64,000 bases of DNA from an uncultured Oscillospiraceae bacterium (GTDB taxonomy: Bacteria; Bacillota; Clostridia; Oscillospirales; Ruminococcaceae), in NCBI GenBank assembly GCA_949299455.1, contig CASGAN010000006.1, positions 1 through 64,000 on the forward strand, written 5' to 3'. The notes below the pieces were generated by a model that was not told where the DNA came from, ran no database searches, and saw only the letters and a program-made list of their open reading frames with translations. Shown here in pieces: positions 4,302-61,737 of the stretch (positions within the stretch are counted from its first letter, which is position 1; each line of letters opens with the position of its first letter). Position numbers and translations under genes: made by a program.

Positions 4302-4435
4302 ATCCATTCCTCCGTTTTTTACTTCATTTCCTTTCACCTTTGAACAGCTTTATTGTAACAAAACTGTTTTAACACTACATGCGGATTTCTGTAAAATGAA
4401 CATCAAACGTATGTTAACCGTCAAGGAGCAAATAT

Positions 4436-4467
4436 AAAAAAGCATCAGCCGCAGCTGATGCTTTTTT
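4436..4467 (-). terminator. Terminator of the MATE-sigI-rsgI unit
   Basis: Stem GCATCAGC/GCTGATGC with loop CGCA, preceded by an A-run and followed by a T-run. It sits 12 bases past the rsgI stop and separates that unit from the surface-protein gene. Confidence 0.88.
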
Positions 4468-4479
4468 CATTTTTATTTT

Positions 4480-5283
4480 TCAGTGTGTTTCATCGTCATC
4501 ATCATCGTCTTTGTCGTCATTCTCATCATCATCGTTATCGTTGTCATCATCGTTATCGTCGTCATCATCGTTATCGTCGTCATCATCGTTATCGTCGTCA
4601 TCAGAATGAGAGGATTCCGCCAAAGAGGATTCTTCCATCTTAGAAGACTCCTCGATTTTAGATGATTCTTCCGGACTGGATGTTTCCGGCTTCTCTTCAT
4701 TTTCAAATGACCAGACTTTATTTCCGCCAACAAAGAAGATAAGATCGGACGCATCCTCGATGTCAAACTGCACTGCATGCGTCAAAATCGCTTTGGTATC
4801 ATCGGAAAATGATTGATCGGATGAATCGACATCAAACCGCACTTCCCCGCCGGATGAAAGCATCTGAAGCGAGATTGCACGTTCAATGAGCTCTTTTACA
4901 ATCTGTGTCTTATCCTTTCCTTTGTATTCATATCCTTCTAACAGCGTCTTGCCATCCTCGTTGACGCCCTCAACACGAAGCACATCACCATATCGATTGA
5001 GCTCCATCTGTACTTCCGGATTGATTTTCATATAAATAGATCCATACGGCATCCACCAATTCCACCACGATACCCCAATGACCAACAGCAGACATGCTGC
5101 AACTGTCACAGCAATCCGCGCTGCACGAATATAGACGGTTGGCTGTGTGCGTTCCCGAACCGGTATGATATCATATACCGTCTGTCCTACTTCATAATGG
5201 CGATTGACCACTTTCAAAAAGCGTCCGTATTCATCCAATACAACCGCATACCCCATATGGCATTCCATCACAAGATAGCTCAT
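4480..5283 (-). CDS. rsgI: RsgI-type anti-sigma factor with Asp-rich tail
   Basis: A 267-residue membrane-bound anti-sigma factor, predicted to hold SigI until an envelope signal arrives. The RsgI N-terminal beta domain (about 2-50) binds sigma. A single transmembrane helix (about 56-77) and an outer domain starting near residue 85 follow. The outer domain contains the Asn-Pro pair (N88-P89, context KINPEV) at which RsgI proteins are reported to self-cleave. The tail has Glu/Ser repeats and then about 45 residues that are almost only Asp and Asn, coded by an 18-base tandem repeat. Many clostridial RsgI proteins carry carbohydrate-binding or enzyme domains there instead; this one ends in a polyanion. 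It overlaps sigI by four bases (ATGA), so the two are translationally coupled. Confidence 0.88.
   Translation of the reverse strand: MSYLVMECHMGYAVVLDEYGRFLKVVNRHYEVGQTVYDIIPVRERTQPTVYIRAARIAVTVAACLLLVIGVSWWNWWMPYGSIYMKINPEVQMELNRYGDVLRVEGVNEDGKTLLEGYEYKGKDKTQIVKELIERAISLQMLSSGGEVRFDVDSSDQSFSDDTKAILTHAVQFDIEDASDLIFFVGGNKVWSFENEEKPETSSPEESSKIEESSKMEESSLAESSHSDDDDNDDDDDNDDDDDNDDDNDNDDDENDDKDDDDDDETH
4522..4601. repeat. 18-bp tandem repeat encoding the RsgI acidic tail
   Basis: The unit GTCATCATCGTTATCGTC occurs three times exactly (4543-4560, 4561-4578, 4579-4596) with degenerate copies on either side. On the coding strand it gives repeated Asp-rich hexapeptides. As an in-frame tandem array it can change length by slippage without breaking the gene. 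Confidence 0.85.
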
Positions 5284-6011
5284 TTTGACGCCTCCTTTTT
5301 TCTGTGGACTTGGGAAAGATGTCCGCGGATGATTTCATATCCATTTGTAAACGCAACCATCAATGCCACCAGATATTTCCGATGCCGCTCAAGCGTTTTC
5401 CGTTCCACACCTGTTCCCGCACAGAGCGCCGTAATCGGAAGCCGCTTCGTTTGAAGCAATTCCTCAAGCAAAGATGGATTCTCTTTCGCATACATGAGCA
5501 CGCGCGAACAGCTTTCAAGTGTCCGTGCCTGCTTCGGACAGTTTTCCGAGATATCCGAAAACGAAATACCAAAATCCGAAAGCTGAGCAGAAAGTTCTGT
5601 GATCTCCTGACGGGTTGCTGTCACCAGCTCATAACGCTCTGTCTGCTGGTTCGGATCTGCAAGCGTGTCCCCGATCGTACCTGCTGATTCATCGTTTGTC
5701 GGCTGATCGATGGATAGTTTATTCTGATAACGCTGTTCTTTACGCGCATAGTCAATCAGACGGCGTTTGATCACAAGGGAAGCGTATTTAAAAAATGCCC
5801 CTCTGAACTTTTCATAGTGCACAATCGCTTCATAAAACGCCGTCATGGCAACACTGAGTTCGTCATCTTCATCTGTCACCCGCTTTCCTTTTAAAAAACG
5901 GGATGTTTCCGAACGAATAAACGGCAGGTAGGATCGAATCAAACGATCTGCTGCCTGTGTACTTTTCTGCGCACACAGTACCTGCGTGACAACATCTGGT
6001 TCGTCATGCAT
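5280..6011 (-). CDS. sigI: RNA polymerase sigma-I factor
   Basis: A 243-residue alternative sigma factor of the SigI family, usually tied to heat, envelope or polysaccharide signals. The region-2-like segment is clear (DDELSVAMTAFYEAIVHYEK followed by KYASLVIKRRLIDYARKE), and a C-terminal DNA-binding part ends near the stop. The start at 6011 is preferred because GGAGG lies eight bases upstream; the longer frame to 6104 would run into the MATE gene and has no ribosome site. It shares four bases with rsgI. Upstream bases contain ACCCCG and CGAA, a possible self-recognised promoter discussed in the findings. Confidence 0.9.
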   Translation of the reverse strand: MHDEPDVVTQVLCAQKSTQAADRLIRSYLPFIRSETSRFLKGKRVTDEDDELSVAMTAFYEAIVHYEKFRGAFFKYASLVIKRRLIDYARKEQRYQNKLSIDQPTNDESAGTIGDTLADPNQQTERYELVTATRQEITELSAQLSDFGISFSDISENCPKQARTLESCSRVLMYAKENPSLLEELLQTKRLPITALCAGTGVERKTLERHRKYLVALMVAFTNGYEIIRGHLSQVHRKKEASK

Positions 6012-6063
6012 ATAAGATCCCTCCACAATGGTAGTATTCGGACGCTCTGGCGCAAAACCGGGG

Positions 6064-7443
6064 TCACGCGTTCTCTTTTTGCGCAGGTAACGGCCGACAT
6101 GCACGCATCAGCTTTTTCATGGAAAATGAATAGACAAGAATGGTCATCGCCGGTCCCAAAATATCGGAGATGGTTTCCGCAAAAAAGACATAGCGCACTT
6201 CGAAAAACATCGGAATCAAAAATACCGCTAAAAAATAGACAAGCTTGCGCCAAAACGAAAGCGGCAGCGAAAACTGCACTTTTCCGATCGCAGTAAATCC
6301 GTCCACCAGCTCATACTGCACACCAAGCGGAACAATGGCAAGCGTACACACACGAATTGCCCAAGCTGTCTGGTCGATGAGTGCCGCATCCTGTGTAAAC
6401 AAGCGAATAAACAGCGGACTTATCGTCCAGGCAATCACAAACATAATCGCTGTAAACACCACACACAGCAGCACAATATATTTCTGTGCGCCCATTACAC
6501 GGTCAGGCCTGCGCGCGCCGTAGTTATAGCCAAGAATTGTCTGCGTGCCGCCGGTAATACCGCTCAACGGCATCGTGATCACCAGCATAAAGCTCTGTAC
6601 AATTGTCGCACATGTAATGAGCGTATCGCCCTGTGCCGCGCCGCCGTAATGCTGCAAGACTGCATTCATGGCAATAATCATGACATTATCAATCGCGATA
6701 ATCAAAAACGGCGTAAATCCAAGCAGCAGCACTCTGCCAATCACACGCAGGTCGTATCCTCCAAACGTAATCCGCACCGGGACATATTTGCCGAATAAGA
6801 AACGCAGGACAAACACACAGCTTGCAAGCTGTGACAAAACGGTTGCAAGCGCTGCGCCGGCCACGCCCATATGAAACACAAAAATAAACAGCGGATCAAG
6901 CAGAATATTTAAAACAGCGCCGATCACGACCGATTTCATACCGGTATTTGCATAGCCCTGCGCAATGATAAACTGATTGAGTCCCGTTGCCATCAATGCA
7001 AACACGGTGCCGCACATATAGACAAGAAAATAGGTTTTCGCATACGGAAGTGTGGCTTCGGAGGCACCGAACAGCTGAAGCATCGATGTTGTGAGCGGCA
7101 TGATAATTGCCATCATCAATCCGGAAAACACCAAAAGCATCAAAAAGCAGTTTGCCAATATTTTTCGTGCGGCTTCGATGTTTTTTTCGCCCATCCGAAT
7201 GCTCATCAGCGGCGAGCCGCCGATTCCGATCCAAAACGCCACCGAACCGACCATCGTCACGATTGGGCCGCATACGCCAACGCCTGCAAGTGCAAGATCG
7301 CCTATCTGCGGAATGTTTCCGATATAAATACGGTCGACAATACTGTAGAGCACACTGACAAACTGTGCAAGCATACTCGGAATCGCAATACGCCACACAA
7401 GCTGTTTTATGCTGTCATTCTCAAGATCATTTTCCCGTTTCAC
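6064..7443 (-). CDS. MATE family multidrug exporter
   Basis: A 459-residue polytopic membrane protein with about twelve hydrophobic helices. It opens with the MATE-type pattern IKQLVWRIAIPSMLAQF, then VDRIYIGN and LALAGVGV. Family members expel drugs or metabolites by Na+ or H+ antiport. The likely start is GTG at 7443, eight bases after GGAGG; the TTG one codon earlier is possible. Its stop lies 52 bases before the sigI start on the same strand, so read-through into sigI-rsgI is plausible. The substrate cannot be inferred. Confidence 0.9.
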   Translation of the reverse strand: MKRENDLENDSIKQLVWRIAIPSMLAQFVSVLYSIVDRIYIGNIPQIGDLALAGVGVCGPIVTMVGSVAFWIGIGGSPLMSIRMGEKNIEAARKILANCFLMLLVFSGLMMAIIMPLTTSMLQLFGASEATLPYAKTYFLVYMCGTVFALMATGLNQFIIAQGYANTGMKSVVIGAVLNILLDPLFIFVFHMGVAGAALATVLSQLASCVFVLRFLFGKYVPVRITFGGYDLRVIGRVLLLGFTPFLIIAIDNVMIIAMNAVLQHYGGAAQGDTLITCATIVQSFMLVITMPLSGITGGTQTILGYNYGARRPDRVMGAQKYIVLLCVVFTAIMFVIAWTISPLFIRLFTQDAALIDQTAWAIRVCTLAIVPLGVQYELVDGFTAIGKVQFSLPLSFWRKLVYFLAVFLIPMFFEVRYVFFAETISDILGPAMTILVYSFSMKKLMRACRPLPAQKENA

Positions 7444-7526
7444 CAATATGTCCTCCTTCTTTTCTGTTGCCGTCTTTAATCCTACTCGTTTTTCGCAAGA
7501 TTGTCAATTCTCCAAAAAGAATCGTA

Positions 7527-7836
7527 TTATGCATCATTCTCCGTGAATGAATCTACAAACGCCTTCAGAGTCATTTGATCTTTCTCAAGCTGGTTTTTGA
7601 TCATTCCTATATTGACTTTTTGTTGTGTTCCACTATGCCCACGCAGTAGTTCCTCGCTCCAATTCAGCAGCATGTAAGGGTGATCTCGGAAGACTTTTGC
7701 GCCTATGTTTTCTCCTCTCTTTTATTCGCACAACCTGCTCTATCTCTTGTCTAAGTTTTCCGTATGCTCTTTTTTTCGGTATTTCGATGCAAATGCAGTA
7801 TTTTATTTTAAATTCGTGACATTCTTTTCTTTCATA
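7527..7836 (-). pseudogene. tnpA: Degraded IS200/IS605 family transposase TnpA
   Basis: Conceptual translation in two frames recovers the two ends of an IS200-type Y1 transposase. The first part (7836 to about 7726) reads KYCICIEIPKKRAYGKLRQ, matching the family start (KYH-IVF-PKYRRK-FYGKLRQEI). The second part (about 7715 to 7527) is in another frame and ends IKNQLEKDQMTLKAFVDSF, matching the family C-terminus (YI-NQLEEDQM-LKEF-DPF). Roughly 70-90 residues, including the HUH metal motif, are missing, and the position of the catalytic Tyr appears to read Met. The element is dead. The family call rests on remembered family sequence, not a search. Confidence 0.7.
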
Positions 7837-7963
7837 TCAAATGACGTTCTGGTTTTCTATTGCCGCATTTGAGCGGTCACAACCTCATTCTCCCAGAAAT
7901 TTTTCACGATCTCATTTTTGTCCTCTCCAACATCAGAAGCTTTCGACTAAAACACTTAAAAAA

Positions 7964-8000
7964 ACAACAGGCAGAGCCATTGAATGGCTCTGCCTGTTTG
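7964..8000 (-). terminator. Terminator of the hrcA-grpE-dnaK-dnaJ operon
   Basis: Perfect 15-base stem (AACAGGCAGAGCCAT with its complement, loop TGA) followed on the minus strand by a T-run, immediately after the dnaJ stop. Confidence 0.92.
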
Positions 8001-8001
8001 T

Positions 8002-9162
8002 TTATTCAAACATTTCTTTTACTTTGTCAAAGAACCCTTTGCGCTTCGTGTACTGCTTTTCGTCTGTCAGCAGCTTATCGAAGTTTTTGAGCGCTTCTTT
8101 CTGCGCCTTCGAAAGACCTTTCGGTACTTCCACCGTGACCTCCACATACTGGTCGCCGCGACCGCGTCCGTTTAAGTTCTGCACACCCTTGCCGCGCAGA
8201 CGGAACACGGTTCCCGGCTGAGTGCCTTCGGGGATCGTGTATTTCACTTTGCCGTCGATCGTCGGCACAGTCAGCTCATCGCCGAGCGCTGCCTGCATAT
8301 AGGTCAGCGGAATCTCACACCAGATATCATAACCATCGCGTTTAAACAGCGTATCCGGACGCACCGTCACAGTGACATGCAGATCGCCTGCCGGTCCGCC
8401 GTTTATGCCGCTGTCGCCCTGACCGCGGACTGCCAGTGTCTGACCATCGTCAACACCGGCAGGAATCGAAACCTCGATTTTTTTCGTAACACGGATTCTG
8501 CCGTTGCCGTTACATTTTTTGCACGGGTTTGTGATAATTTTACCCTTGCCGCCGCAGCGCGAACACGGACGGCTTGATGTCATAGAACCAAGCGGTGTCC
8601 GCTGGGTCACACGCACCTGACCGGTGCCGTGACAATCCGGACAAGTCTGTGCATCATGTCCCGGTTCACTGCCGCTGCCATAACAATCCGGGCAGCTTTC
8701 CATCCGCTGAATGCTGATCTCACGTTTGACGCCTTTGCACGCCTCAAAGAAGCTGATTGTGCAGCTCGTCTGCAAATCGCCGCCGCGGCGCGGTGCGTTC
8801 GGATTGGCACGTCTGGACGAACCGAATCCGCCGCCGAAAAATCCTTCAAAAATATCGCCGAGATCGCCCATATCAAAGCCGCCGAATCCACCAAATCCGC
8901 CGGCACCCGGACCACCTGCGCCGTAGCTCGGATCGACACCCGCATGACCGAACTGGTCATAACGTGCACGCTTTGTGGAGTCCGAAAGCACCTCATATGC
9001 CTCATTGGCCTCTTTGAATTTCTTTTCAGCTTCTTTGTCCCCTGGATTTAAGTCGGGATGATATTGTTTTGCGAGTTTGCGATACGCTTTTTTCAGCTCA
9101 TCGTCCGTTGCTGTTTTCGAAACACCGAGCACCTCGTAATAATCGCGTTTTTCCTCAGCCAA
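8002..9162 (-). CDS. dnaJ: Chaperone DnaJ (Hsp40)
   Basis: A 386-residue type I J-protein, co-chaperone that stimulates DnaK ATPase and delivers unfolded clients. It has a J domain (about 5-70, HPD at 35-37), a Gly/Phe-rich linker (about 75-115), four zinc-binding repeats ([32 protein letters not shown]) and a C-terminal client-binding domain. Length and order match the family. It is the last gene of the heat-shock operon, 108 bases after dnaK with a hairpin between them, and is followed by a strong terminator. Confidence 0.98.
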
Positions 9163-9209
9163 ATCCGTTCGTCCTCCTCTGTCTTGTCATTATGAGCACA
9201 CACCCGAAA

Positions 9210-9235
9210 CGGGACGAAACCAACGCTTCGTCCCG
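9210..9235 (-). other. Hairpin in the dnaK-dnaJ intergenic mRNA
   Basis: Perfect nine-base stem CGGGACGAA/TTCGTCCCG with an eight-base loop and no following T-run. It could stabilise the dnaK 3' end or mark a processing site that sets the DnaK:DnaJ ratio; this role is inferred from position only. Confidence 0.5.
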
Positions 9236-9270
9236 AATCCGGATTTGATGTTCTCAAAAAACTGTGTCAA

Positions 9271-11115
9271 TTATTTATCGTCGTTTACTTCTGTGAAGTC
9301 CGCATCGACAACGCCGTCCGGACCAACATTGCCCGACTGTGCAGCGCCTGCATTCGGTGCGCCCTGCTGTGCCTGAGCAGCCTGTGCTGCTTCATACATC
9401 TTCGAAGAAACTGCATAGAATGCTTTTTCGAGCTCTTCCTGTTTTGCTTTGATCGAATCGACTGTACCGGATTTGAGTTCCTCTTTCAGTGCTTCGATTT
9501 TTGCAGTGATATCGGTTTTCTCGGAATCGGAGATTTTGCCTTCCATATCTTTGAGTGCTTTCTCACACTGGAAGACCATCTGATCTGCGCCGTTTCTGAC
9601 GTCGATCTCTTCTTTTTTCTTCTTATCCTCTGCTGCAAATGCCTCAGCCTCTTTCACAGCGCGGTCGATGTCCTCTTTGGACATGTTGGTCGAAGAAGTG
9701 ATGGTGATGTGCTGCTCTTTGCCGGTGCCCAGATCTTTTGCCGAAACGTGAACGATGCCGTTTGCGTCGATATCATAGGTGACTTCGATCTGCGGGATGC
9801 CGCGCGGAGCCGGTGCGATGCCGTCGAGTTTGAAGATGCCCAGTGTTTTGTTGTCTTTTGCAAATTCACGCTCACCCTGCAGGACGTGGATCTCAACAGC
9901 GGTCTGGTTATCTGCTGCGGTCGAGAAGACCTGCGATTTTTTGGTCGGGATCGTGGTGTTTCTCTCGATCAGTTTTGTGGAGACGCCGCCGAGTGTCTCA
10001 ATGCCCAAGGACAGCGGTGTAACGTCAAGAAGCAGCAGGCCTTTGACCTCACCGCCCAGAACGCCGCCCTGAATTGCAGCGCCGACAGCAACACATTCAT
10101 CCGGGTTGATTCCTTTGAACGGCTCTTTTCCGATCACGTTTTTGACTGCGTCCTGAACTGCCGGAATTCTCGAAGAACCACCGACCATCAGCACTTTGTT
10201 TAACTCAGAAGCGGACAGACCGGAGTCGGACAGTGCCTGACGAACCGGGCCCATGGTAGCTTCTACGAGATCTGCAGTCAGTTCATTGAATTTTGCACGG
10301 GTCAGTGTCATGTCAAGGTGTTTCGGGCCGGTTGCATCTGCTGTGATAAACGGCAGGTTGATCTGTGTCTGGGTCATGCCGGACAGGTCGATTTTTGCTT
10401 TCTCAGCAGCCTCTTTCAAACGCTGCAGTGCCATTTTGTCAGCTTTTAAATCAATGCCGTCTGTTTTCTTGAATTCAGAAGCCATCCAGTCGATGATGCG
10501 TGCATCGAAGTCATCGCCGCCCAAGCGGTTGTTGCCGGCAGTTGCCAGAACTTCCTGCACACCGTCGCCCATTTCGATGATGGAAACGTCGAATGTGCCG
10601 CCGCCCAAGTCGTATACCATGATTTTCTGATCCTGTTCTTTGTCAACACCGTAAGCCAATGCAGCAGCAGTCGGCTCGTTGATGATTCTCTTGACTTCAA
10701 GGCCTGCGATTTTGCCTGCGTCTTTGGTAGCCTGACGCTGTGCATCGGTGAAGTATGCCGGAACGGTGATGACAGCCTCGGTCACGGTTTCACCCAGATA
10801 TGCTTCTGCGTCTGTTTTAAGCTTCTGCAGAATCATTGCGGAAATCTCCTGCGGAGTGAATGCTTTGCCGTCGATGTTTACTTTGTAGTCGCTGCCCATG
10901 TGACGTTTGATCGAGCTGATCGTACGGTCAGCGTTTGTCACAGCCTGACGTTTTGCAGTTGCACCGACAATGCGCTCGCCGGTTTTCGAGAAAGCGACGA
11001 CAGACGGTGTGGTTCTTGCGCCCTCAGAGTTTGCGATGACGACCGGCTCGCCGCCTTCGATGACAGCGACGCAAGAGTTTGTTGTACCAAGATCAATACC
11101 AATAATTTTTCCCAT
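9271..11115 (-). CDS. dnaK: Chaperone DnaK (Hsp70)
   Basis: A 614-residue Hsp70. The nucleotide-binding domain opens with [14 protein letters not shown] and includes [11 protein letters not shown] and the [10 protein letters not shown] motif. The interdomain linker ([15 protein letters not shown]) and substrate-binding domain follow, and the C-terminus is acidic ([11 protein letters not shown]). The length is typical of Firmicutes DnaK, which lacks the proteobacterial N-domain insertion. It lies 71 bases after grpE and is expected to be induced with the operon when HrcA leaves CIRCE. Confidence 0.99.
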
Positions 11116-52588: not shown

Positions 52589-54490
52589 TTATGCACGCTC
52601 AAACTGACTGTTATACAGATTTGCGTAGAACCCGTTCTGCGCCATCAGTGTCGCATGGGTTCCCTGCTCCACAATATCGCCGTCTTTCATGCAGAGAATC
52701 CAATCAGCATCTTTGATTGTCGAAAGACGATGTGCAATGATAAATGACGTACGGTTCTTCATCAAATTGTCCATTGCACGCTGAATGAGCACTTCTGTAC
52801 GCGTGTCAACCGAACTGGTTGCCTCGTCCAGAATCAGAATTTTCGGATCGGACAAAATCGCACGCGCAATCGTCAAGAGCTGTTTTTGTCCCTGCGAAAC
52901 GTTGCTTGCTTCTTCGTTAAGCATCATCTGATATCCGTCAGGCAATGTGCGCACAAAGTGATCTACCTGCGCTGCTTTTGCCGCTGCATAGACCTCTTCA
53001 TCGGTTGCATCCGGACGGCCGTAGCGGATATTCTCCATGATGGTTCCGTTATACAGCCAGGTATCCTGCAGCACCATACCGAACAAACCGCGCAGTTCAG
53101 TACGGGAGAAGTTTTTGATGTCATAGCCGTCAATCAGAATTGCACCTTCGTTGACATCGTAAAAACGCATCAGCAATTTAACCATTGTCGTCTTTCCGGC
53201 ACCGGTCGGACCGACGATTGCGATTTTCTGTCCTGCTTTAATGGACGCCGAGAAATCATTGATGATGATTTTCTCCGGATTATATCCAAAGTGAACGTGT
53301 GCAAACTGCACATCGCCCGTGATATGCACGTTTGTATCGGTATCCGGCTCATCGGTATCGTTGACGGTGATGATCTGTGTTTCCGGCGTTTCCTCTTCCT
53401 CACCTAAAAATTCAAACACGCGCTCGCTGGCTGCAGCCGCCTGCTGCAAGACGTTCGAAATATTTGCAAGCTGTGTGATCGGCTGTGTAAACTGACGCAC
53501 ATACTGAATAAACGCCTGAATATCACCCACGCTAATAAGACTCTGTGTTGCCAGGAAGCCACCGAGCAGACAGATGACCACATAGCCGAGATTTGCCACG
53601 AAGTTCATGACAGGCATCATCATACCCGAGAAAAACTGGCTCTTCCAAGCTGAACGGTACAGCTCATCGTTGTATTCTTTAAACTGCGCAATCGAACGTT
53701 CCTCACCGCAGAATGCCTTCATCACAACATGACCGCCGTACATCTCTTCGACATGACCGTTTACATGTCCTAAATACTCCTGCTGTGCGGCAAAGTACTT
53801 TTGCGACCGTTTCACGATCAATACCACAAAAATGAGCGAAACCGGCACGATGCACAGCGCCACCAGCGTGAGCTGCCAGCTGATCGTGAGCATCATAATC
53901 AGAATACCGACAATGCTCGTCACCGATGTGATAATCTGCGTAACACTCTGATTTAATGTCTGCGAAAGTGTATCGATATCATTTGTCACACGGGAAAGCA
54001 CCTCTCCGTGATTGGTGGTGTCAAAATACCCAAGCGGCATACGGTTGATTTTTTTGATGATATCGTTGCGCAGTCCGTATGTCACACGCATCGACACACC
54101 GGTCATGATAAATCCCTGTAAATACGAGAACAGGGCGCTTACAAGATACAATCCGAGCAGCCAAAGCATGATCTGTGCGATATAGGCAAAATCGATCCCC
54201 TGTTCACTGCCGGAAATTTTTCGCATGATGCCGTTAAACAGCTCTGTCGTCACATTACCGAGAATTTTCGGTCCGAGAATCATAAAAATCGTCGATGCCA
54301 CTGCAAACAGCAGCACTACAAAAATCCGGAATTTATATTTTCCCAAATAGATGAGCAGTTTTTTCATACTGCCTTTAAAATCTTTTGCTTTCTCGCCGCC
54401 CATGCCGCCATGACCCATACCGGGTCTGCCCATACGCGGTCCATTCATTCTGCCCTGCACACCGGAGGGCCGCTTCACATTCTGATTCAT
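52589..54490 (-). CDS. ABC exporter half-transporter, consensus-site subunit
   Basis: A 633-residue exporter half with a Met/Gly/Arg-rich N-terminal tail (about 10-35), six helices (about 50-350) and an ATPase domain (Walker A VGPTGAGKTT, Walker B ILILDEATSSVD with catalytic Glu, His switch IIAHRLSTI). Its own signature motif is altered (NVSQGQKQ instead of LSGGQ). With the partner upstream, this is the pattern of a heterodimer with one strong and one weak ATP site. The start at 54490 overlaps the partner stop by four bases and has GGAGGAG upstream. Drug or peptide export is likely. Confidence 0.93.
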   Translation of the reverse strand: MNQNVKRPSGVQGRMNGPRMGRPGMGHGGMGGEKAKDFKGSMKKLLIYLGKYKFRIFVVLLFAVASTIFMILGPKILGNVTTELFNGIMRKISGSEQGIDFAYIAQIMLWLLGLYLVSALFSYLQGFIMTGVSMRVTYGLRNDIIKKINRMPLGYFDTTNHGEVLSRVTNDIDTLSQTLNQSVTQIITSVTSIVGILIMMLTISWQLTLVALCIVPVSLIFVVLIVKRSQKYFAAQQEYLGHVNGHVEEMYGGHVVMKAFCGEERSIAQFKEYNDELYRSAWKSQFFSGMMMPVMNFVANLGYVVICLLGGFLATQSLISVGDIQAFIQYVRQFTQPITQLANISNVLQQAAAASERVFEFLGEEEETPETQIITVNDTDEPDTDTNVHITGDVQFAHVHFGYNPEKIIINDFSASIKAGQKIAIVGPTGAGKTTMVKLLMRFYDVNEGAILIDGYDIKNFSRTELRGLFGMVLQDTWLYNGTIMENIRYGRPDATDEEVYAAAKAAQVDHFVRTLPDGYQMMLNEEASNVSQGQKQLLTIARAILSDPKILILDEATSSVDTRTEVLIQRAMDNLMKNRTSFIIAHRLSTIKDADWILCMKDGDIVEQGTHATLMAQNGFYANLYNSQFERA

Positions 54491-56721
54491 GCCAACTCCT
54501 CCTCTGAAAGCTGCGACTGTGCAATCTCCAAGTAGGTCTTGCATGTGCGCAGCAATTCTTTGTGCGTACCTTTTCCGACAATTTTGCCTTCATCCAGCAC
54601 GATGATCTGCTCTGCATTCATAATCGTGCTCACCCGCTGTGCGACGATCAGCACTGCCGATTCTTTTGTGTATGCAGCCAATGCGCGGCGAAGTGCTGCA
54701 TCGGTTTTAAAGTCAAGTGCCGAAAAACTGTCATCAAACACATACACCGGCGCCTTTGATGCAAGTGCACGCGCAATCGAAAGACGCTGCTTCTGTCCGC
54801 CGGACACGTTTGTGCCGCCCTGTGCAATCGGTGTTGCCATCTGATCGGGGAATGCATCAATAAACTCCTTCGCCTGTGCAATCTGTGCAGCTTCTGTGAG
54901 TTCCTCGTCTGTTGCGCTCTCCCGTCCATAGCGGATGTTGGATGCAATATCACCGGAGAACAGCAATCCTTTCTGCGGGACAAAGCCGATCTGACGGCGC
55001 AGATCATGCTGGCGCAGTGTGCGGATGTCAATACCATCCAATAAAATTTCGCCTTCTGTTACATCGTAAAATCGCGGAATCAGCTGCACAAGCGTCGATT
55101 TGCCGGAACCGGTACTGCCGATGAATGCAGTTGTTTCGCCCGGTTTTGCCGTAAACGAAATATGTTCGAGTGCATTTTCCTCTGCATTCGGATAGCGGAA
55201 GCTGACGTCACGGAATGTGAGCTCACCATGTACTGCTGCCGGAAGCGAAACCGGAGATTCCGGATCGCGGATGACCGGTTTTGTTGCAAGAACTTCCGCA
55301 ATACGCTCTGCTGCAACTGATGCACGCGGCACCATAATAAACATGACTGCGATCATGAGGAAGGACATGATGATCTGCATTGCATACTGCATAAATGCCA
55401 TCATATCGCCCACCTGCATCGCAGATGCCTCAATCTGTTTGCCGCCGACCCAAACGATCAGCAATGTGACACCATTCATCAACAGCATCATGAACGGCAT
55501 CATAAATACCATCACGCGGTTGATAAACAGGTTATTCTGTGTTAAATCGCGGTTTGCCTTTTCAAAGCGTGCTTCCTCACGTTTCTGATTGCCGAATGCA
55601 CGTACAACCATCATACCGCTTAAGCTTTCGCGCGTGACCAGATTGAGCCGGTCAATGAGTGACTGGACAATTTTGAATTTCGGCATTGCAACCGAAAAAA
55701 TCACAAAAATCAAGCCAAGCAGCACAATCACTGCAACCGCAATAATCCACGAAAGCGAAACGCTTTTGTTGAGCGCCATAATGACACCGCCGATGCCCAT
55801 AATCGGCGCATAGCAAATCATACGCACGCCCATGATAATGAGCATCTGCACCTGTGTTGCATCGTTGGTTGTTCTGGTAATGAGCGAAGCCGTCGAGAAT
55901 TTGTCAAACTCACTTGCCGAAAAGCTCTCAACACGGGCAAACACATCGTGACGAAGTGCTCTCGTAATACCCGCTGCGGTGCGCGATGCAAAAAAGCCCA
56001 CCAGAATCGCACATGCCGCACTGACCAATGTAATAAGGAGCATCAAAAGACCTGTACGGAAAATGTATGCGTTTTGCATTGCGCCCGTATCAGCGCCTAA
56101 TTCCTCATAAAAGCCTTTTGTCATGACCGTGCCGATCTGCCCACTCAGCGAAGGGTCCATCTGCGCGCCTTTTTCCACAGCGTCTTTGATCACCTGCGGC
56201 GGCATTTTGGAAAGTGCCGGCAGCATCCCGTAAATCGCTTCAAAATCCATCTCGGACGAAGCGTTCGATTCGGAAAGATCAAGCTCGCTTCCCTGCTCTT
56301 TTGCTGCGGTTTGAAAAAACTGCAGAATCGCACCTGCCGCATGACTGTATACCTCTGCCGCATCTTCATGCAGCTGTTTGTCTTCCGTCAAAACAAAGAC
56401 GGTTTGATCGTTCGCCTTTTTGAATGTTTTTTCGATTGAATCAGGTAAATCTGCACCCGGTTGTTTTTCTTCATATGCTTTCTCAAGAACAGATTGATCT
56501 TGCTCCGAGACAAATGATGACAAAAGCATCATTCCGTTTTCGCTGATCACACGAGGCACTTCGTCCTCGATGCCGCTTTGCTGCAATCCGACATTCACGA
56601 TATCAGACATCAGATTCGGCAAGCTTAACTCGCACATCGCCTGGCCGAACAGCAGCGCAAGACATACAAACAGCACCAAAAGATACGGCTTTGCATAACG
56701 CGCCAGCTTTCTCATACGCAT
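54487..56721 (-). CDS. ABC exporter half-transporter, degenerate-site subunit with large outer loop
   Basis: A 744-residue half-transporter. Between helix 1 (about 12-35) and helix 2 (about 222) lies an insert of roughly 180 hydrophilic residues that should face outside. The ATPase domain has Walker A IGSTGSGKST and a normal signature NVSGGQKQ, but the residue after Walker B is Asp (VFDDSFSALD) and the switch His is Gln (IVAQRVSTI), so its own site is degenerate. It pairs with the next gene, as in BmrC/BmrD-type multidrug exporters, one of which also carries an extra outer domain. Confidence 0.93.
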   Translation of the reverse strand: MRMRKLARYAKPYLLVLFVCLALLFGQAMCELSLPNLMSDIVNVGLQQSGIEDEVPRVISENGMMLLSSFVSEQDQSVLEKAYEEKQPGADLPDSIEKTFKKANDQTVFVLTEDKQLHEDAAEVYSHAAGAILQFFQTAAKEQGSELDLSESNASSEMDFEAIYGMLPALSKMPPQVIKDAVEKGAQMDPSLSGQIGTVMTKGFYEELGADTGAMQNAYIFRTGLLMLLITLVSAACAILVGFFASRTAAGITRALRHDVFARVESFSASEFDKFSTASLITRTTNDATQVQMLIIMGVRMICYAPIMGIGGVIMALNKSVSLSWIIAVAVIVLLGLIFVIFSVAMPKFKIVQSLIDRLNLVTRESLSGMMVVRAFGNQKREEARFEKANRDLTQNNLFINRVMVFMMPFMMLLMNGVTLLIVWVGGKQIEASAMQVGDMMAFMQYAMQIIMSFLMIAVMFIMVPRASVAAERIAEVLATKPVIRDPESPVSLPAAVHGELTFRDVSFRYPNAEENALEHISFTAKPGETTAFIGSTGSGKSTLVQLIPRFYDVTEGEILLDGIDIRTLRQHDLRRQIGFVPQKGLLFSGDIASNIRYGRESATDEELTEAAQIAQAKEFIDAFPDQMATPIAQGGTNVSGGQKQRLSIARALASKAPVYVFDDSFSALDFKTDAALRRALAAYTKESAVLIVAQRVSTIMNAEQIIVLDEGKIVGKGTHKELLRTCKTYLEIAQSQLSEEELA

Positions 56722-56851: not shown

Positions 56852-57256
56852 TCATTCAATTCCTTCATAATAGCACACGATTTTTTCCATAATATCGGGC
56901 GGCAAATCGAAATATTCTGCAAGCTGCCAAATTTCCACATTACCCTGCATCACTGCGTGATGAAGCGCATCCTCTGACACCAGATGCTCATACGCCCACA
57001 CATTTGCACGCCGTTCATGCCGGCTTTTTAAATCAAACGGACTGTATCGGTTATAAAACGCGCCGCGCACACAGTGACCAAGCTCATGGGCAAGGCAAAC
57101 CCGCTCCTGCTGCACAGACTCCATATGCGTATCGAGTGCAATAAAGCAGTCGCCTTCTTCGTCCATCAGCGAAATCGCCTTTGTATTCGGCAGCGGGATC
57201 TGATCCACTGTGATCTGCTCGTCCTGCGCCAGTTTATACAGTGCTTTTAAATCCAT
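56852..57256 (-). CDS. ImmA/IrrE family metallopeptidase
   Basis: A 134-residue zinc protease: HELGH at 57-61 within VCLAHELGHCVRGAFYN, and a downstream ERRANVWAYEHL segment supplying the third ligand. In ICE and phage systems such ImmA proteases cut the partner XRE repressor to start induction. It overlaps the repressor gene by 23 bases, fitting a repressor/antirepressor pair. Confidence 0.92.
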   Translation of the reverse strand: MDLKALYKLAQDEQITVDQIPLPNTKAISLMDEEGDCFIALDTHMESVQQERVCLAHELGHCVRGAFYNRYSPFDLKSRHERRANVWAYEHLVSEDALHHAVMQGNVEIWQLAEYFDLPPDIMEKIVCYYEGIE

Positions 57257-57590
57257 TCTGTTTGCGTTCCTTTACAAATTGGGCATACGCCTTTACTTCT
57301 TCAAACATCTCGTCTGTAATATTTTCCGACTCACCGAACAGCGCAAATTTAATTTCATCATCGCTTGCCGTATGGCTTTGCTTATCGCTGCTTTCCCCCA
57401 GCAAATACGCAACCGACACATGAAAATATCCGGCGATCTTGCTCGTTGTCGTTGCGGAAAGTGTCTGCGTCCGTCCCTGCTTTAATTCTGTTAGCGTGCT
57501 CCGTCCAATGTCCAAATCCCGGCACATTGCCGTCACGTTTGTGTGGTGTGCACGACACAGTGATTCAATAATTTCATACATTCCCGCCAT
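57234..57590 (-). CDS. XRE family repressor (ImmR/phage cI type)
   Basis: A 118-residue protein with an N-terminal helix-turn-helix (about 8-60: NVTAMCRDLDIGRSTLTELKQG, then SKIAGYFHVSVAYLLG) and a C-terminal tail that probably mediates dimers and ImmA cleavage. It is divergent from the sigma-like/terminase genes, and palindromes in the shared region fit its binding sites. AGAGGTG lies about nine bases before the ATG. Confidence 0.92.
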   Translation of the reverse strand: MAGMYEIIESLCRAHHTNVTAMCRDLDIGRSTLTELKQGRTQTLSATTTSKIAGYFHVSVAYLLGESSDKQSHTASDDEIKFALFGESENITDEMFEEVKAYAQFVKERKQNGFKSTV

Positions 57591-57640
57591 TTTTCATAAC
57601 ACCTCTCGCTTTTGGATAAAAACGCCTTGACAAATACTGC

Positions 57641-57673
57641 ATTCTGTAATACCATAATATAAAAATACAGAAT
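57641..57673. promoter_or_regulatory. Candidate repressor half-sites ATTCTGTA and TACAGAAT
   Basis: ATTCTGTA (57641-57648) and its complement TACAGAAT (57666-57673), 17 bases apart, in front of the repressor gene. The same half-sites form the full palindrome at 57835-57856. Confidence 0.6.
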
Positions 57674-57789
57674 TCAGCTATATTCGCGTTTCTTGCTATA
57701 ATAGTACCCTGTTTTTTCCCTCCTGTCAACATTTTTCGACAAATCCAGTAATAAAGGCGACGAAAATGACGAATCCAATTGTTTATTAC

Positions 57790-57795
57790 TATAAT
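57790..57795 (+). promoter_or_regulatory. -10 box of the sigma-like/terminase unit
   Basis: Perfect TATAAT on the plus strand, with an ATGACG-like -35 about 18 bases upstream. The -35 match is weak, as in promoters that need an activator. Confidence 0.45.
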
Positions 57796-57834
57796 AGCAG
57801 GAGGAAACACGAACTTTCTCATCAAAAATAATAC

Positions 57835-57856
57835 AATATTCTGTATACAGAATATT
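57835..57856. promoter_or_regulatory. Perfect 22-base palindromic operator
   Basis: Eleven-base arms AATATTCTGTA and TACAGAATATT meet with no spacer, 18 bases before the sigma-like gene. They share the ATTCTGTA half-site found in front of the repressor, so one regulator probably binds both. Confidence 0.75.
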
Positions 57857-57874
57857 ACTGAAAGGACGCTTGCT

Positions 57875-58309
57875 ATGACAAAAGAATCATTAAGCCAGCT
57901 TCTCTGGCTCAAAAAAGAAATTGCGCTCGAGCAGCGCCGTATGCATGAGCTGGACGCACTGATTGCAGGAAGCGCATCCGGTGCTGCGGGATTCCCATCG
58001 CTCGACGAAGAAGAACGCGCCTATTTCGCAGACGAACTGCAAACATGCCGGAATCAGGTACGTGCAAAACTGTTAACTGCCATGCACGAATATCAGCGTC
58101 TGAATGAATACATCGCATCGATTGATGACAGCTTGATGCGGCAGATTTTATCGCTGCGCTATATCAACGGCTTTTCCTGGCAGCAAATTGCATTTTGCAT
58201 CGGAGAACACGATGAACAATATCCGCGCCGAAAACATCAGTCATTCCTTGCACACTCCAATCAATCAGCGGCAGGTGTCCCCGTCCATGCGCATTACACC
58301 AGAAGCTGA
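57875..58309 (+). CDS. Phage sigma-like/DUF1492-type regulator
   Basis: A 144-residue protein with a helical N-terminus (about 1-90) and a C-terminal sigma-region-4-like motif LMRQILSLRYINGFSWQQIAF, common in phage late-gene regulators of the DUF1492/ArpU type. AAGGA lies eight bases before the ATG at 57875; the longer frame to 57779 would cross the palindrome. The end overlaps the next ORF. It probably activates the packaging genes, by analogy. Confidence 0.7.
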   Translation: MTKESLSQLLWLKKEIALEQRRMHELDALIAGSASGAAGFPSLDEEERAYFADELQTCRNQVRAKLLTAMHEYQRLNEYIASIDDSLMRQILSLRYINGFSWQQIAFCIGEHDEQYPRRKHQSFLAHSNQSAAGVPVHAHYTRS

Positions 58310-58475
58310 CCGTCGTTTGATCGACACACTGTTTGCACGGTACAGACAAATAAAAGAACAACAGAAACAAACTTCTCTTTCCGCTGCACATTGGTATACG
58401 CAAATGCTGCATGATGAAGAAATGTATCTGCGCCGACAGTTGTACGAACGCGGCTATGATCCCGATGAATGTTAA
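58287..58475 (+). CDS. Small phage-type protein of unknown function
   Basis: A 62-residue charged helical protein (MRITPEADRRLIDTLFARYR, Gln/Lys-rich middle, end QLYERGYDPDEC). AGGTG lies nine bases before this ATG. An earlier ATG at 58212 with GGAGA upstream would give 87 residues but overlap the previous gene by 98 bases. I do not recognise a family; its place just before TerS is usual for small phage ORFs. Confidence 0.5.
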   Translation: MRITPEADRRLIDTLFARYRQIKEQQKQTSLSAAHWYTQMLHDEEMYLRRQLYERGYDPDEC

Positions 58476-58492
58476 AAAAGGAGGCGATTTTT

Positions 58493-59053
58493 ATGATTCG
58501 TGCATCTTGTGTGGGATGCATTTACCACAGGCAGCTCGGCGATGCCGAAACATGGGGATGCCACTACTTGCTCGATACCGGCGAGCTGCGCGGATGTCCT
58601 GCGCACGCCTGCACCAAAAAGCAGTACCCTGACACGCAAAAGGTACGCACCCAGACAATGCTGCGCGCTGTACGGTATTTTTCGGAATGCCGCGGACGCG
58701 CCGTTTTGGATGAAAAAGGGACGGCCATGCGCGCCAAAGACGGCACACCACTGCGCGAAGGCGTTCATCCGCCGACGGTCGCAGGACTTGCGCTGGCGCT
58801 CGGCTTTTGCTCAAGGCAGGATTTAAAAGATGCCGCACAGACGAAAGAGCTCGGCGACATCATCCGCTGGTCACTCGGAAAATGCGAAGAATACCTGGAA
58901 GAAAAGCTGTGCGAAAGCGCCGCCGGCGTCAAACTCTCGCTCATGAACAATTTCCCCGGTTGGAGCGAGTCATCCCCGGATGAAGCACACACCGAAATCC
59001 ACGTCACACTCGAGGGGGAATCACATGGCCAAACATCACAGCAAAACGTTTGA
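58493..59053 (+). CDS. terS: Terminase small subunit with N-terminal Cys module
   Basis: A 186-residue protein. The N-terminus (about 1-45) is cysteine-rich (CVGCIYH, WGCHYLL, RGCPAHAC), a zinc-finger-like module often a separate ORF in phages. A middle-to-C-terminal part matches DNA-packaging gp3/TerS: HPPTVAGLALALGFCSRQDL, then KCEEYLEEKL and KLSLMNNFPGW. TerS selects the viral DNA for packaging. GGAGG lies eight bases before the ATG at 58493. It overlaps TerL by 29 bases. Confidence 0.8.
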   Translation: MIRASCVGCIYHRQLGDAETWGCHYLLDTGELRGCPAHACTKKQYPDTQKVRTQTMLRAVRYFSECRGRAVLDEKGTAMRAKDGTPLREGVHPPTVAGLALALGFCSRQDLKDAAQTKELGDIIRWSLGKCEEYLEEKLCESAAGVKLSLMNNFPGWSESSPDEAHTEIHVTLEGESHGQTSQQNV

Positions 59054-60422
59054 CATCCACATCAAAAAAGAAGCGTTCAACGACGTATATCTGCCATTGC
59101 TCCACTGCCAGAAGCGTTATATTGTACTGTGCGGCGGTGCCGGCTCGGGCAAGTCGGTCTTTACTGTTCAGCGGTATTTATATCGGCTGCTGACAGAACC
59201 GGGCAGAAACCTGCTCGTCGTACGCGCCGTACAAGCTACGCACCGAAACTCTACATTCGCACTGTTTCGCCAGATGATCGGCAAATGGAATCTCACACCG
59301 CTGTTTGAGATCGCTGAGGGACTTGAGCGCATCCGCTGCAAAAACGGCAACGAGATCATTTTCAAAGGACTCGACAACAGCGAAAAGCTCAAATCCGTCA
59401 CCTTTTCAAGCGGTGAACTGACGGATATCTGGGTGGAGGAAGCAAGTGAAATCGAAGAACATGACTTCAATCAGCTTGCCATTCGTTTGCGCGGCGGTAC
59501 CGTTTCCAAGCAGATTGTTCTGTCATTTAACCCTGTAAGCGTGCACCACTGGCTCAAGCGCCGGTTTTTCGATCATCCGCCAAAGGACGCCGTCACGCTG
59601 CGCACCACTTACAAGGATAACCGCTTTTTATCACCGGAAGACGGCGCGGTGCTCGAATCGTTCCGCGAAACAGACCCATATTACTATCAGGTCTACTGCC
59701 TCGGTGAGTGGGGTGTTCTGGGCAAAAGTGTATTCGACGCACAGGCCGTCAACCGCCGCTTGAACGAAATTCGTTCGCTGTCGGTGCGGTGCGGCTCGTT
59801 TGTATGCTGTGAGCAGGACGGCACACTCCATGAGATTCAGTTCATCGACGAGCCGGACGGCGCCATCCGTATCTACTCTCCGCCCGAGCCGGGTGTGCAG
59901 TATGTGATCGGCGGTGACACCGCCGGCGACGGATCGGATGCATTCGTCGGTCAGGTGATCGAAAGCCGCACCGGCAGACAGGTGGCAACGCTGCACCGCT
60001 CGTTCGACGAAGATGTGTATGCCAAGCAGATGTTCTGTCTTGGCACCTACTATAACAACGCACTGATTGCATGTGAGGTCAATTTCTCAACGTATCCGGT
60101 GCGCGAATTACAGCGTCTGCACTATCCAAGACAGTACTACCGCGAAATTTACGACTCGATCACCCGCGACATGGAATACCGTTATGGATTTTTAACAAAC
60201 CGGATTACCCGTCCGGTCATTTTGGCAGAGCTGATTCGCATTGTCCGCGAACAGCCTGAGCTGTTTTGTGACGAACGCACACTCAATGAAATGCTCACAT
60301 TCGTCCGCAGTAAAGACGGACGCGCAGAGGCGGCAAGCGGTGCACACGACGACTGTGTGATGGCACTTGCGATCGCGTTTGCGGCACGTCATCAGGCGGC
60401 GGGCGCAATCGACGAAGAATAA
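59025..60422 (+). CDS. terL: Terminase large subunit, PBSX family
   Basis: A 465-residue packaging motor and nuclease. Walker A GGAGSGKS (37-44), Walker B DIWVEEASE (about 135-143), coupling motif VLSFNPVS, and the RNase H-like nuclease with VIGGDTAGDGSDAF (about 294-306) and a late SGAHDDCVMALAIAF are all present. Nothing is missing, so it could be active. It starts at 59025 inside terS. No portal gene follows; a terminator and a chromosomal gene do. Confidence 0.93.
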   Translation: MAKHHSKTFDIHIKKEAFNDVYLPLLHCQKRYIVLCGGAGSGKSVFTVQRYLYRLLTEPGRNLLVVRAVQATHRNSTFALFRQMIGKWNLTPLFEIAEGLERIRCKNGNEIIFKGLDNSEKLKSVTFSSGELTDIWVEEASEIEEHDFNQLAIRLRGGTVSKQIVLSFNPVSVHHWLKRRFFDHPPKDAVTLRTTYKDNRFLSPEDGAVLESFRETDPYYYQVYCLGEWGVLGKSVFDAQAVNRRLNEIRSLSVRCGSFVCCEQDGTLHEIQFIDEPDGAIRIYSPPEPGVQYVIGGDTAGDGSDAFVGQVIESRTGRQVATLHRSFDEDVYAKQMFCLGTYYNNALIACEVNFSTYPVRELQRLHYPRQYYREIYDSITRDMEYRYGFLTNRITRPVILAELIRIVREQPELFCDERTLNEMLTFVRSKDGRAEAASGAHDDCVMALAIAFAARHQAAGAIDEE

Positions 60423-60430
60423 CGGCATAT

Positions 60431-60463
60431 AAAAAACGCACCTTTTAAAAAGGTGCGTTTTTA
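60431..60463. terminator. Shared terminator of terL and the methionine gamma-lyase family gene
   Basis: Perfect stem AAAAACGCACCTTTT with its complement, two-base loop, A-rich and T-rich sides; between convergent genes. Confidence 0.9.
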
Positions 60464-60468
60464 TTGTA

Positions 60469-61737
60469 TTATTTCGGGTCCAGAACGCCACGGGACGCCA
60501 TTTCCTGCGCCGCCAGCAGAATACCGAGCTTGCCGGTATTATACGTAAGGCCGCCCTGCAGCCAAACGGCATACGGTTCACGCAGCGGTGCATCGGCAGA
60601 AAGCTCGATCGAAGCGCCGAGCGTAAATGCGCCTGCCGCCATGATGACCTCGCTTTCATAGCCGGGCATGTCCCACGGTTCGGGTGCGACAAAGCTGTCC
60701 ACCGGCGAACCTTTCTGAATGCCTTGACAGAACGCCACAAGCCGCTCCCGGTCGCCGAGCGCAATCGCCGCAATGATATCGGTTCTGTGCGCGTCGTATG
60801 CAGGATAGACTTCATATCCAAGCTTTGAAAACAGCGACAGTGCAAAAATCGATGTTTTGACTGCCGAACATACAACCGACGGTGCAAAATAAAGTCCTAA
60901 GAACATTCCGCGGCTTTCTCCGAGCGTACAGCCAACCTCTTTGCCCATGCCGACACAGGTCAGGCGATAAGAACAAAGCTCCACCAAATCGTGACGGCCT
61001 GCAATATAGCCGCCGGTTTTTGCAATACCGCCGCCCGGATTTTTAATAAGCGAACCGATAATCAAATCGGCGCCCACAGCGGTCGGCTCTGTTTTTTCCA
61101 CAAACTCACCATAGCAGTTATCCACCACGGCGATCACATCAGGATTTGCTTCTTTTGCCGCACGGATCATCTTTCCGATTGTTTCGACCGAGAACGATTC
61201 CCGCAGGGAATAGCCGCGTGAACGCTGGATATACACGATTTTCGCACCGATTGCCTGCTGTTTGATCGCTTCATAATCGGGTGTGCCGTCAGAAAGCAGA
61301 TCGACCTGACGATAGGTCACGCCGAAATCACGCAGAGAGCCGTTGCCCTCACCGCGGATACCGATGACTTCCTCCATCGTATCGTATGGTGCGCCGGTTA
61401 ACGAAACCATCACATCGCCCGTACGCAAAACGCCGAACAGCGCAACGGTCAGCGCATGGGTGCCGGACACAAAATTGTGCCGCACAAGCGCATCCTCCGC
61501 GCCAAACACCTTCGCATATACCTCGTCGAGCACCTCACGGCCGCGGTCACCGTAGCCATAGCCGGTGCTTCCGACAAAATGCGATTCACTCACTCTGCAC
61601 TCTGAAAATGCATGCAGAACCTTTGCTTCATTATATGCACAAACCTCGTCCATCGCCGCAAACGCTTCTGCCGCCTGTGATTCCGCTTCCGCGGCCAGAC
61701 GGGTGAGCCGTTCGTCAAACGAATAAAATGGATTCAT
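60469..61737 (-). CDS. Methionine gamma-lyase family PLP enzyme (aluminium-resistance type)
   Basis: A 422-residue fold-type I PLP enzyme of the PF06838 family. It has FVGSTGYGYGDRGREVLDEVYA, HNFVSGTHALTVALF, VVDNCYGEFVE and the PLP Lys in GSLIKNPGGGIAKTGGYI. Members are annotated as methionine gamma-lyase-like or aluminium resistance proteins; the true substrate is not fixed. Its start lies directly at the stop of the next upstream gene, in a unit with two M42 peptidases. Confidence 0.92.
   Translation of the reverse strand: MNPFYSFDERLTRLAAEAESQAAEAFAAMDEVCAYNEAKVLHAFSECRVSESHFVGSTGYGYGDRGREVLDEVYAKVFGAEDALVRHNFVSGTHALTVALFGVLRTGDVMVSLTGAPYDTMEEVIGIRGEGNGSLRDFGVTYRQVDLLSDGTPDYEAIKQQAIGAKIVYIQRSRGYSLRESFSVETIGKMIRAAKEANPDVIAVVDNCYGEFVEKTEPTAVGADLIIGSLIKNPGGGIAKTGGYIAGRHDLVELCSYRLTCVGMGKEVGCTLGESRGMFLGLYFAPSVVCSAVKTSIFALSLFSKLGYEVYPAYDAHRTDIIAAIALGDRERLVAFCQGIQKGSPVDSFVAPEPWDMPGYESEVIMAAGAFTLGASIELSADAPLREPYAVWLQGGLTYNTGKLGILLAAQEMASRGVLDPK

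Follow-up and report, generated by a model that had tools for sequence, protein, structure and literature searches.

What keeps a phage terminase pair intact in a bacterial chromosome, under its own repressor and with no other phage gene beside it? The question is raised by a block at positions 56852-60466 of the window, i.e., the whole stretch of 64,000 nucleotides analysed here, which is the start of contig C6 (78,544 bases) in the genome of an uncultured Oscillospiraceae bacterium (G000; 2.22 Mb, 51 contigs). The block is flanked by host genes for an ABC exporter and a methionine gamma-lyase. Its minus-strand genes encode an ImmA-like M78 peptidase and an XRE repressor; the plus strand has a sigma-like regulator, a small open reading frame (ORF), the small and large terminase subunits (TerS and TerL) and a terminator-like stem. 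An earlier note, made from the sequence letters, had listed exactly these features, followed by chromosomal genes, and all of them are present. It also saw no other phage genes, and profile searches likewise found no integrase, replication or other phage gene between the two host neighbours. We consider this block to be the control-and-packaging locus of a split, phage-derived element, similar to a gene transfer agent (GTA) and inherited with the host genome, a reading to which we give a probability of about 60%. Most related genomes with a lone TerS/TerL pair have head genes located elsewhere, which points to particle systems kept by their hosts and not to dying viruses.

Conservation of the cassette between two species

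This TerL was found in two of the eight genomes of the genus, G000 and that of the sister species Merdimmobilis hominis An559 (G007, cassette locus L120), while G003 gave only a 34% partial match to another terminase. In M. hominis the block has the same site, the same order and continuous synteny with the window. The ratio of nonsynonymous to synonymous substitution rates (dN/dS) between the two species was 0.028 for TerL (480-codon frame), 0.016 for TerS, 0.012 for XRE, 0.042 for the M78 gene and 0.048 for the sigma-like gene, and 0.023-0.042 for five flanking genes, at dS values of 0.12-0.30 (mostly ca. 0.25-0.30, with 0.12 for the sigma-like gene). Read from position 59025, TerL has 70 synonymous versus 7 nonsynonymous codon differences. 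The five main genes contain no internal stops and all are open in both species. They are thus under strong purifying selection.

The first option of the earlier note, a decaying prophage, has to be rejected on these grounds: dN/dS of 0.012-0.048 and the absence of internal stops rule out a simple neutral remnant, and terL, for which the note had proposed this very comparison, is constrained like the flanking genes and not drifting. A complete prophage at the site in close relatives, which the note had named, together with a neutrally drifting terL, as the sign of a simple remnant, was not seen in G007 or next to the flanks in G002; for the other five genomes of the genus, the comparison of flanks was by DNA match only. 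Empty-site alleles and border repeats were also looked for, at its suggestion. No empty site was found among the genus genomes, the two flanks lying on different contigs in G002 and far apart in the one-contig genome G004, and no direct repeat spans both borders, the nearest pair (58002 / 60409, 16 nt, 94%) having one copy within the sigma-like gene.

Distant head genes in related genomes

A TerL profile was run against a single genome from each species, and the best 80 of 425 relatives were kept. A cassette was called lone when TerL was accompanied by TerS or small genes, with no portal or capsid match within at most 10 kb on each side. A total of 22 loci were lone in this sense, mostly behind a divergent repressor (23 rows with the window): L120, L122-L124, L128-L133, L135, L137, L139-L143, L145, L149-L151 and L158. 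We did not count L136 (cassette-like, then unidentified genes) or L121 (capsid downstream). Most of the genomes are drafts or metagenome bins and some loci end near contig ends; for L133, L143 and L150 less than 5 kb is in view 3' of TerL. The gene caller chose wrong strands in several GC-rich loci (e.g., L110, L111, L117, L340 and L348), and L340 and L348 were read by tblastn.

Head genes distant from the cassette were found in 20 of these 22 genomes, 3 of them podovirus-like and 17 of a second type, where distant means on another contig or outside the stretch in view. The genomes of L124, L131 and L133 each have both a podovirus-like capsid and portal (profiles built from relatives), and in their gene lists no terminase stands beside these head genes. 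The L131 genome offers both loci on one contig of 305.8 kb, with TerL at 205399-206898 and the head block at ca. 115976-141996. The second type was reached through the capsid family PF25209, which matched in 22 of 24 genomes versus 2 of 14 control genomes, although in some of the 24 it also matched larger proteins. Reading 19 of the matched places revealed a conserved second-type block in 17 of 18 further lone-cassette genomes, that of L141 being the exception. It was annotated in L338 and traced by tblastn in the remaining loci, and runs from a portal (PHROG 30703) through an unknown protein, the major capsid protein (PHROG 3922) and small genes to two hub-like genes and a Baseplate_J protein, sometimes cut by the contig end. 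No terminase was found in the 19 loci, nor any lysis gene or integrase within the block among the gene lists in view. Other head families are scattered among the 24 genomes (SPP1_portal in 7, Phage_capsid in 8). Genomes with no head elsewhere are those of M. hominis and L141, plus the window's own. Among the three readings of the earlier note a domesticated DNA-processing module fares best, yet its statement that everything but control and packaging had been lost is incomplete for the class, even if such a loss is possible in the window's genome, where no head was found.

Several groups of lone cassettes share a host locus, and most are under purifying selection. The same host locus, judged by neighbour order and length, is occupied across species by L122, L128, L130, L132 and L143, and likewise by L123/L139/L140, by L135/L151 and by L149/L150. 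Within these groups and for the pair L129/L158, TerL dN/dS was 0.05-0.27 (some dS values being saturated), with the exception of L135/L151 (0.51). A holin-type gene lies 3' of TerL in 16 of the 22 loci and an amidase or lysin in 9; family matches confirm holin and amidase in L139 and the holin in L130 (holin comparisons with L122, where two holin genes were mixed, were set aside). Recombinase genes are near 4 of the 22 cassettes (L123, L137, L140 and L124). As the sequence in view shows none at the other loci, we regard these genes as neighbours.

Some further observations concern the head loci. In L337 (the L123 genome, G122:C16, ca. 1260-9580) other phage-like genes abut a truncated second-type capsid gene, and the portal side is missing. 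A split head block in G127 (L296/L297, G127:C1:118204-129556) has, between portal and scaffold-like genes, a gene for a 1261-aa protein with no Pfam match, followed by repeated small genes that we read as immunity-like; together they are possibly toxin-immunity cargo. A virion structural gene (PHROG 3287) occupies two overlapping frames at L107:9804-11697 (G049:C1); it is a single frame of 616-634 aa in some relatives, and the split may come from a frameshift, a sequencing error or a programmed shift.

TerL endings and a possible exchange of terminases

The type of head is reflected in the end of TerL. In all three lone cassettes with a podovirus-like head TerL ends in a WTxDMxEDY...RWG tail. 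Among the comparison loci that could be scored, those with a podovirus-like portal or capsid have this tail in 43 of 45 cases for genomes and 43 of 54 for viruses, and those without in 2 of 12 and 2 of 19, respectively, so that this looser form of the pattern disagrees with head presence in 17 of 130 rows (4/57 genome, 13/73 viral); with a stricter form the tail is detected at 30 of 58 genome loci. None of the other 20 lone TerLs has it, the window's included, and a podovirus-like head was found in none of those 20 genomes (19 searched with profiles A4/A5, G000 with A1/A2). The 18 lone TerLs outside Merdimmobilis all have a second ending in loose form, [WP][SGTFA]x[ASTGL][VIM]x[RK], which is found in 0 of the 130 comparison TerLs, and 17 of the 18 genomes have the second head type.

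Viral contigs with the second head type (L352-L431, the best 80 of 243 relatives) encode a TerL of this head close to the portal in 74 of 80 cases, and in 59 of 59 where at least 1.3 kb upstream of the portal is in view. In the cassette genomes, in contrast, this TerL was found at 0 of 19 places, 14 of them with the portal and at least 1.3 kb upstream. As far as these gene arrangements can tell, this suggests an exchange of terminases, in which a head family that normally comes with its own TerL is left without one in the lone-cassette genomes. TerL and head protein distances are correlated over 15-17 genomes (Mantel r 0.77-0.87, p 0.0002), as joint inheritance predicts. In other terminases (D6E, T4) a C-terminal arm is thought to meet the portal (PMC5727402), and the endings found here are likened to that arm by description, not by sequence. 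Many of the second-type viral contigs are only 9-13 kb long and may be further GTA-like elements catalogued as viruses.

The partner of the Merdimmobilis cassette

Several results weigh against our interpretation, above all in Merdimmobilis itself. No podovirus-like head was found in G000 with profiles A1 and A2, nor in G007 with A1, A2, A4 and A5, and PF25209 had no match and thus revealed no second-type head in either genome (the second-type portal itself was not searched in G000). The TerL of the window ends in AAGAIDEE and that of G007 in AAGPIEEE, which fit neither ending, and the window cassette has no holin or lysin. For the class as a whole, the loose pattern of the second ending was fitted to the same 18 rows that it describes, and the strict form (W[SG]x[AST]VxR) holds in only 8 of the 18. 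The TerL of the second-type head is absent at the head locus, other terminases in the cassette genomes not having been searched, and second-type heads devoid of TerL were not searched in cassette-free genomes, which limits the scope of the pairing. Species history alone may also account for the correlation of distances. No operator common to cassette and head locus was found in G049 or G127, and in 13 of the 14 paired second-type genomes (L142, with no repressor in view, was omitted) two share a plain 11-mer and none a palindrome. Lastly, a TerL tree of 55 rows (L148, L190, L209 and L212 entered untrimmed) groups the window with L120 and L124 (UBA1405), with support of 98/89, and places the other 20 lone rows elsewhere, together with a few phage rows. 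A single clade of all lone rows was rejected (approximately unbiased test, p 0.00055), so that the analogy crosses at least two lineages.

The partner head of G000 and G007 is either of a third, unrecognised type, or was lost while the cassette is still selected. Because the head is missing or unrecognised, we have not filed the window as a GTA. Of the features that define these agents (PMC9662315), the tailed-phage origin is seen in TerL, TerS and the regulator, all matching phage families. As to location in several loci, separate heads are known from 20 of the 22 other genomes, and no second locus was found for the window. Mostly vertical inheritance may be indicated by the same site in two species, with TerL in two of eight genus genomes and no host tree compared. 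That the Merdimmobilis terminase, kept under selection at a dS of ca. 0.25 with no recognised head, portal or ending, reveals an undiscovered third split GTA head or works with no particle at all is a tentative idea, for which we see slightly short of an even chance.

The missing head also invites a different explanation, in which loss of the head locus, at about the time of the species split or earlier, has made the cassette a recently orphaned relic on its way out, the signal of selection being a leftover. Apart from the failure to find either partner head type in both genomes, a TerL that lacks both endings, with 2 of its last 5 residues differing between the species, and the poorly conserved small ORF would fit this idea. 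So would the situation in G002, where an XRE gene (90% identity over 111 residues) and operator-like pieces stand beside the same ABC gene and M78, TerS and TerL do not. This looks like an older cassette that has since been deleted, although the XRE gene could be older than the rest of the cassette (the XRE comparison between G000 and G002 was set aside, as dS is saturated). However, a long-dead cassette should have stops or many more replacements, and the five main genes are open and constrained in both species at dS of mostly ca. 0.25-0.30. We find such a relic unlikely.

Gene content of the locus

The features of the block and its neighbours are as follows.

54487-56721, minus: ABC exporter subunit, left host neighbour and boundary, outside the element
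56852-57256, minus: ImmA-like M78 metallopeptidase, 134 aa (PF06114, E 2.9e-10; phrog_87, E 5.5e-23)
57234-57590, minus: XRE repressor, 118 aa (PF13443, E 1e-6; phrog_8, E 1.5e-11)
57591-57874, no strand: divergent control region from XRE to the sigma-like gene, alignable in G007
57627-57655 (plus), 57766-57795 (plus) and 57729-57701 (minus): promoter-like sites, pattern matches only
57641-57648 and 57666-57673: further half-sites of the palindrome that follows
57835-57856, no strand: perfect 22-bp palindrome AATATTCTGTA/TACAGAATATT, identical in G007
57875-58309, plus: sigma-like transcriptional regulator, 144 aa (phrog_36, E 8e-11; DUF1492 under cut-off)
58212-58475, plus: small ORF, 87 aa, with no family match
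58469-59053, plus: TerS, 194 aa (phrog_606, E 9.2e-9; PF16677 under cut-off)
59025-60422, plus: TerL, 465 aa (PF04466, E 2e-52; TIGR01547, 169 bits, cut-off 105)
60432-60462, plus: terminator-like stem-loop of 14 pairs, 3' of TerL
60469-61737, minus: methionine gamma-lyase family enzyme, right host neighbour and boundary, outside the element

The ORF listed for TerL begins at 58980, 59025 being the likelier start. The protein scores above the cut-off of TIGR01547, the model of PBSX-family TerL, and its ATPase and nuclease motif residues are the same as in relatives, which bears out the earlier note on this point. An AlphaFold model (mean predicted local distance difference test score 80.2, predicted template modelling score 0.58) aligned over both domains, with moderate template modelling (TM) scores, to two solved large terminases, Sf6 gp2 (E 6.3e-21, TM 0.43, root mean square deviation 17) and D6E (E 2.4e-16, TM 0.49, deviation 10); the high deviations probably come from the orientation of the domains in the model. 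The N-terminal stretch of TerS appears to us Cys/His-rich. The 87-aa product of the small ORF is 72% identical to its counterpart in G007 versus 98-99% for the neighbouring proteins. GC content at third codon positions is 60.5 for TerS and 62.4 for TerL, compared to a mean of 53.5 (sd 5.1) over 48 window genes, and is near that of the genes to the right; the other cassette genes are slightly under the mean. No tRNA was found in the window. Phage records matching the window TerL at E 1e-20 numbered 373, all below 60% identity, and none of them covers 80% of it in one place.

Intact catalytic motifs and fold in a TerL with neither ending nor head might also mean that the terminase has a job that needs no head, for instance the cleavage or movement of DNA, be it chromosomal or from incoming phages, or interference with the packaging of other phages. 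A repressor of its own with an operator-like palindrome would suit such a role, and cross-talk is conceivable, given that a resident prophage encodes a TerS-like protein with which TerS shares 38% identity over 111 residues. However, heads are found elsewhere in 20 of the 22 other lone-cassette genomes, and we met no headless terminase in the literature looked at. A headless function therefore appears quite improbable to us.

Putative regulation of the cassette

Most single terminator-like and promoter-like sites prove little: the 3.95-kb stretch around the block has 7 and 11 of them, respectively, versus 5.1 and 4.5 in shuffles. The 22-bp palindrome is a probable repressor operator, judging from its sequence. 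Its 16-bp core has one perfect site per genome in G000 and G007, at the cassette. With 1 mismatch there is one further site in G000, within a predicted gene, and with 2 mismatches there are sites in G000 and G007 (same gene context) and in G002; these cannot be called chance, because the reversed control pattern had 0 matches. At the second-type heads, a different palindrome of 24 bp (AAGTTGTCC-N6-GGACAACTT or a near form) lies 88-200 bp upstream of the portal match in 12 of 14 loci (L336, L338-L345 and L348-L350; absent in L333 and L334), and its strict form is matched nowhere in a further 3.57 Mb of sequence, cassettes included. It may act as an operator or form a leader hairpin. Of 22 cassette control regions tried, 20 were read, and an SOS box GAACNNNNGTTC was found in one of them (L124). 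In the UBA1405 cassette of G049 (L032:8248-8472) there is a perfect LexA/DinR-type box GAACATATGTTC near the promoter.

For the split element that we favour, we propose the following course, with ImmR/ImmA switches as the model by analogy for its first steps. XRE would hold the divergent promoters shut at the 22-bp operator until a signal such as DNA damage, upon which the ImmA-like peptidase, a probable anti-repressor, would inactivate it, leaving the sigma-like protein to activate TerS and TerL. In the relatives, the C-terminal ending of TerL would serve to dock it, in trans, to the portal of a head whose genes lie elsewhere, and the head would be filled with DNA, presumably that of the host. 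Where holin and lysin genes lie 3' of TerL, lysis of the cell would follow.

Phage genes elsewhere in the genome

Two other sources of head proteins are present in G000. Contig C18 carries a prophage with an SPP1-type portal and, beside it, its own TerS-like and TerL-like genes, and the portal has no match in G007. The other is a small integrative element on C20 (L323, G000:C20, 10766-17134), also found in G007 (L324, G007:C1, 11018-17386), with 97.6% identity over 6.4 kb and a different flank where both are visible. It carries a 605-aa prohead protease-capsid fusion, a tyrosine integrase and a replication-type gene (both annotated in L324) and further small genes that we read as regulator-like. 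No portal or terminase was seen in it, and it looks like a capsid-bearing satellite. As a partner of the cassette we rejected it, since no portal was seen and the one comparable flank differs between the species. Neither it nor the C18 prophage supplies the missing head.

The presence of a portal on C18 and of a capsid on C20 could be taken to favour another proposal of the earlier note, i.e., that the block is a satellite-like element packaging itself through the head of a helper phage. Yet the block has no integrase, replication gene or border repeat, and hence lacks the integrase plus replication or excision genes of satellites like the phage-inducible chromosomal islands. Its site is shared by two species, the search of G007 gave no SPP1-type portal, and the C18 prophage has a terminase-like pair of its own. 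We regard this proposal as unsupported and very improbable.

A compact element of ca. 12.4 kb lies between host genes in the relative G038 (L112:4104-16507, G038:C5). Its genes include those for ImmA-like, XRE and sigma-like proteins, terminase, portal and capsid, together with others that are phage-like, and no integrase or replication gene was recognised in it.

Comparison with known systems

Lone terminase genes are easily dismissed as prophage debris. Here they mark motor and head encoded apart, and probably also controlled apart, in many gut Clostridia. If true, this gives a way to find GTA-like systems that prophage finders would miss, natural motor-head pairings (ending type versus head type) in which to study terminase-portal recognition, and a possible path by which gut bacteria exchange genes. 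The literature searched gave no account of a terminase locus that has a repressor of its own and works with a distant head, nor of terminase exchange, although such accounts may exist.

GTAs such as RcGTA are described as residing in the host genome, often in several loci, mostly vertically inherited and devoid of replication genes (PMC9662315, PMC11841831). RcGTA is known from particles and random DNA packaging and has another phage ancestry, whereas the window is known from genes alone. Closer to the window is FpGTA of Faecalibacterium, with two operons ca. 125 kb apart in one strain and particles of ca. 40 nm containing ca. 9 kb of DNA (PMC12946183). Set side by side by description and not by sequence, both come from gut Clostridia, are phage-derived and have no replication genes, and FpGTA has podovirus-like head proteins, as do three of the other lone-cassette genomes. 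However, the FpGTA terminase pair is in one operon with portal and capsid, while the pair of the window is alone under its own repressor and so far headless.

The compact element of G038 has the same divergent layout, with M78 and XRE facing the sigma-like gene, TerS and TerL. Its M78 and XRE proteins are 37% and 41% identical to those of the window, whose sigma-like regulator is 34% identical to the G049 protein. The G038 element differs in having portal and capsid within the same 12.4 kb and a TerL of the Terminase_6N type. PBSX of Bacillus subtilis has an ImmA-like gene, Xre, a sigma-like gene, TerS and TerL in similar order, a layout that the window matches, its sigma-like gene presumably occupying the place of Xpf. 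Beyond these genes PBSX goes on, at the one locus, with those for portal, capsid, tail and lysis, whereas the window stops after TerL and a host gene follows the terminator-like stem. Together, FpGTA and PBSX are the nearest known systems to this locus.

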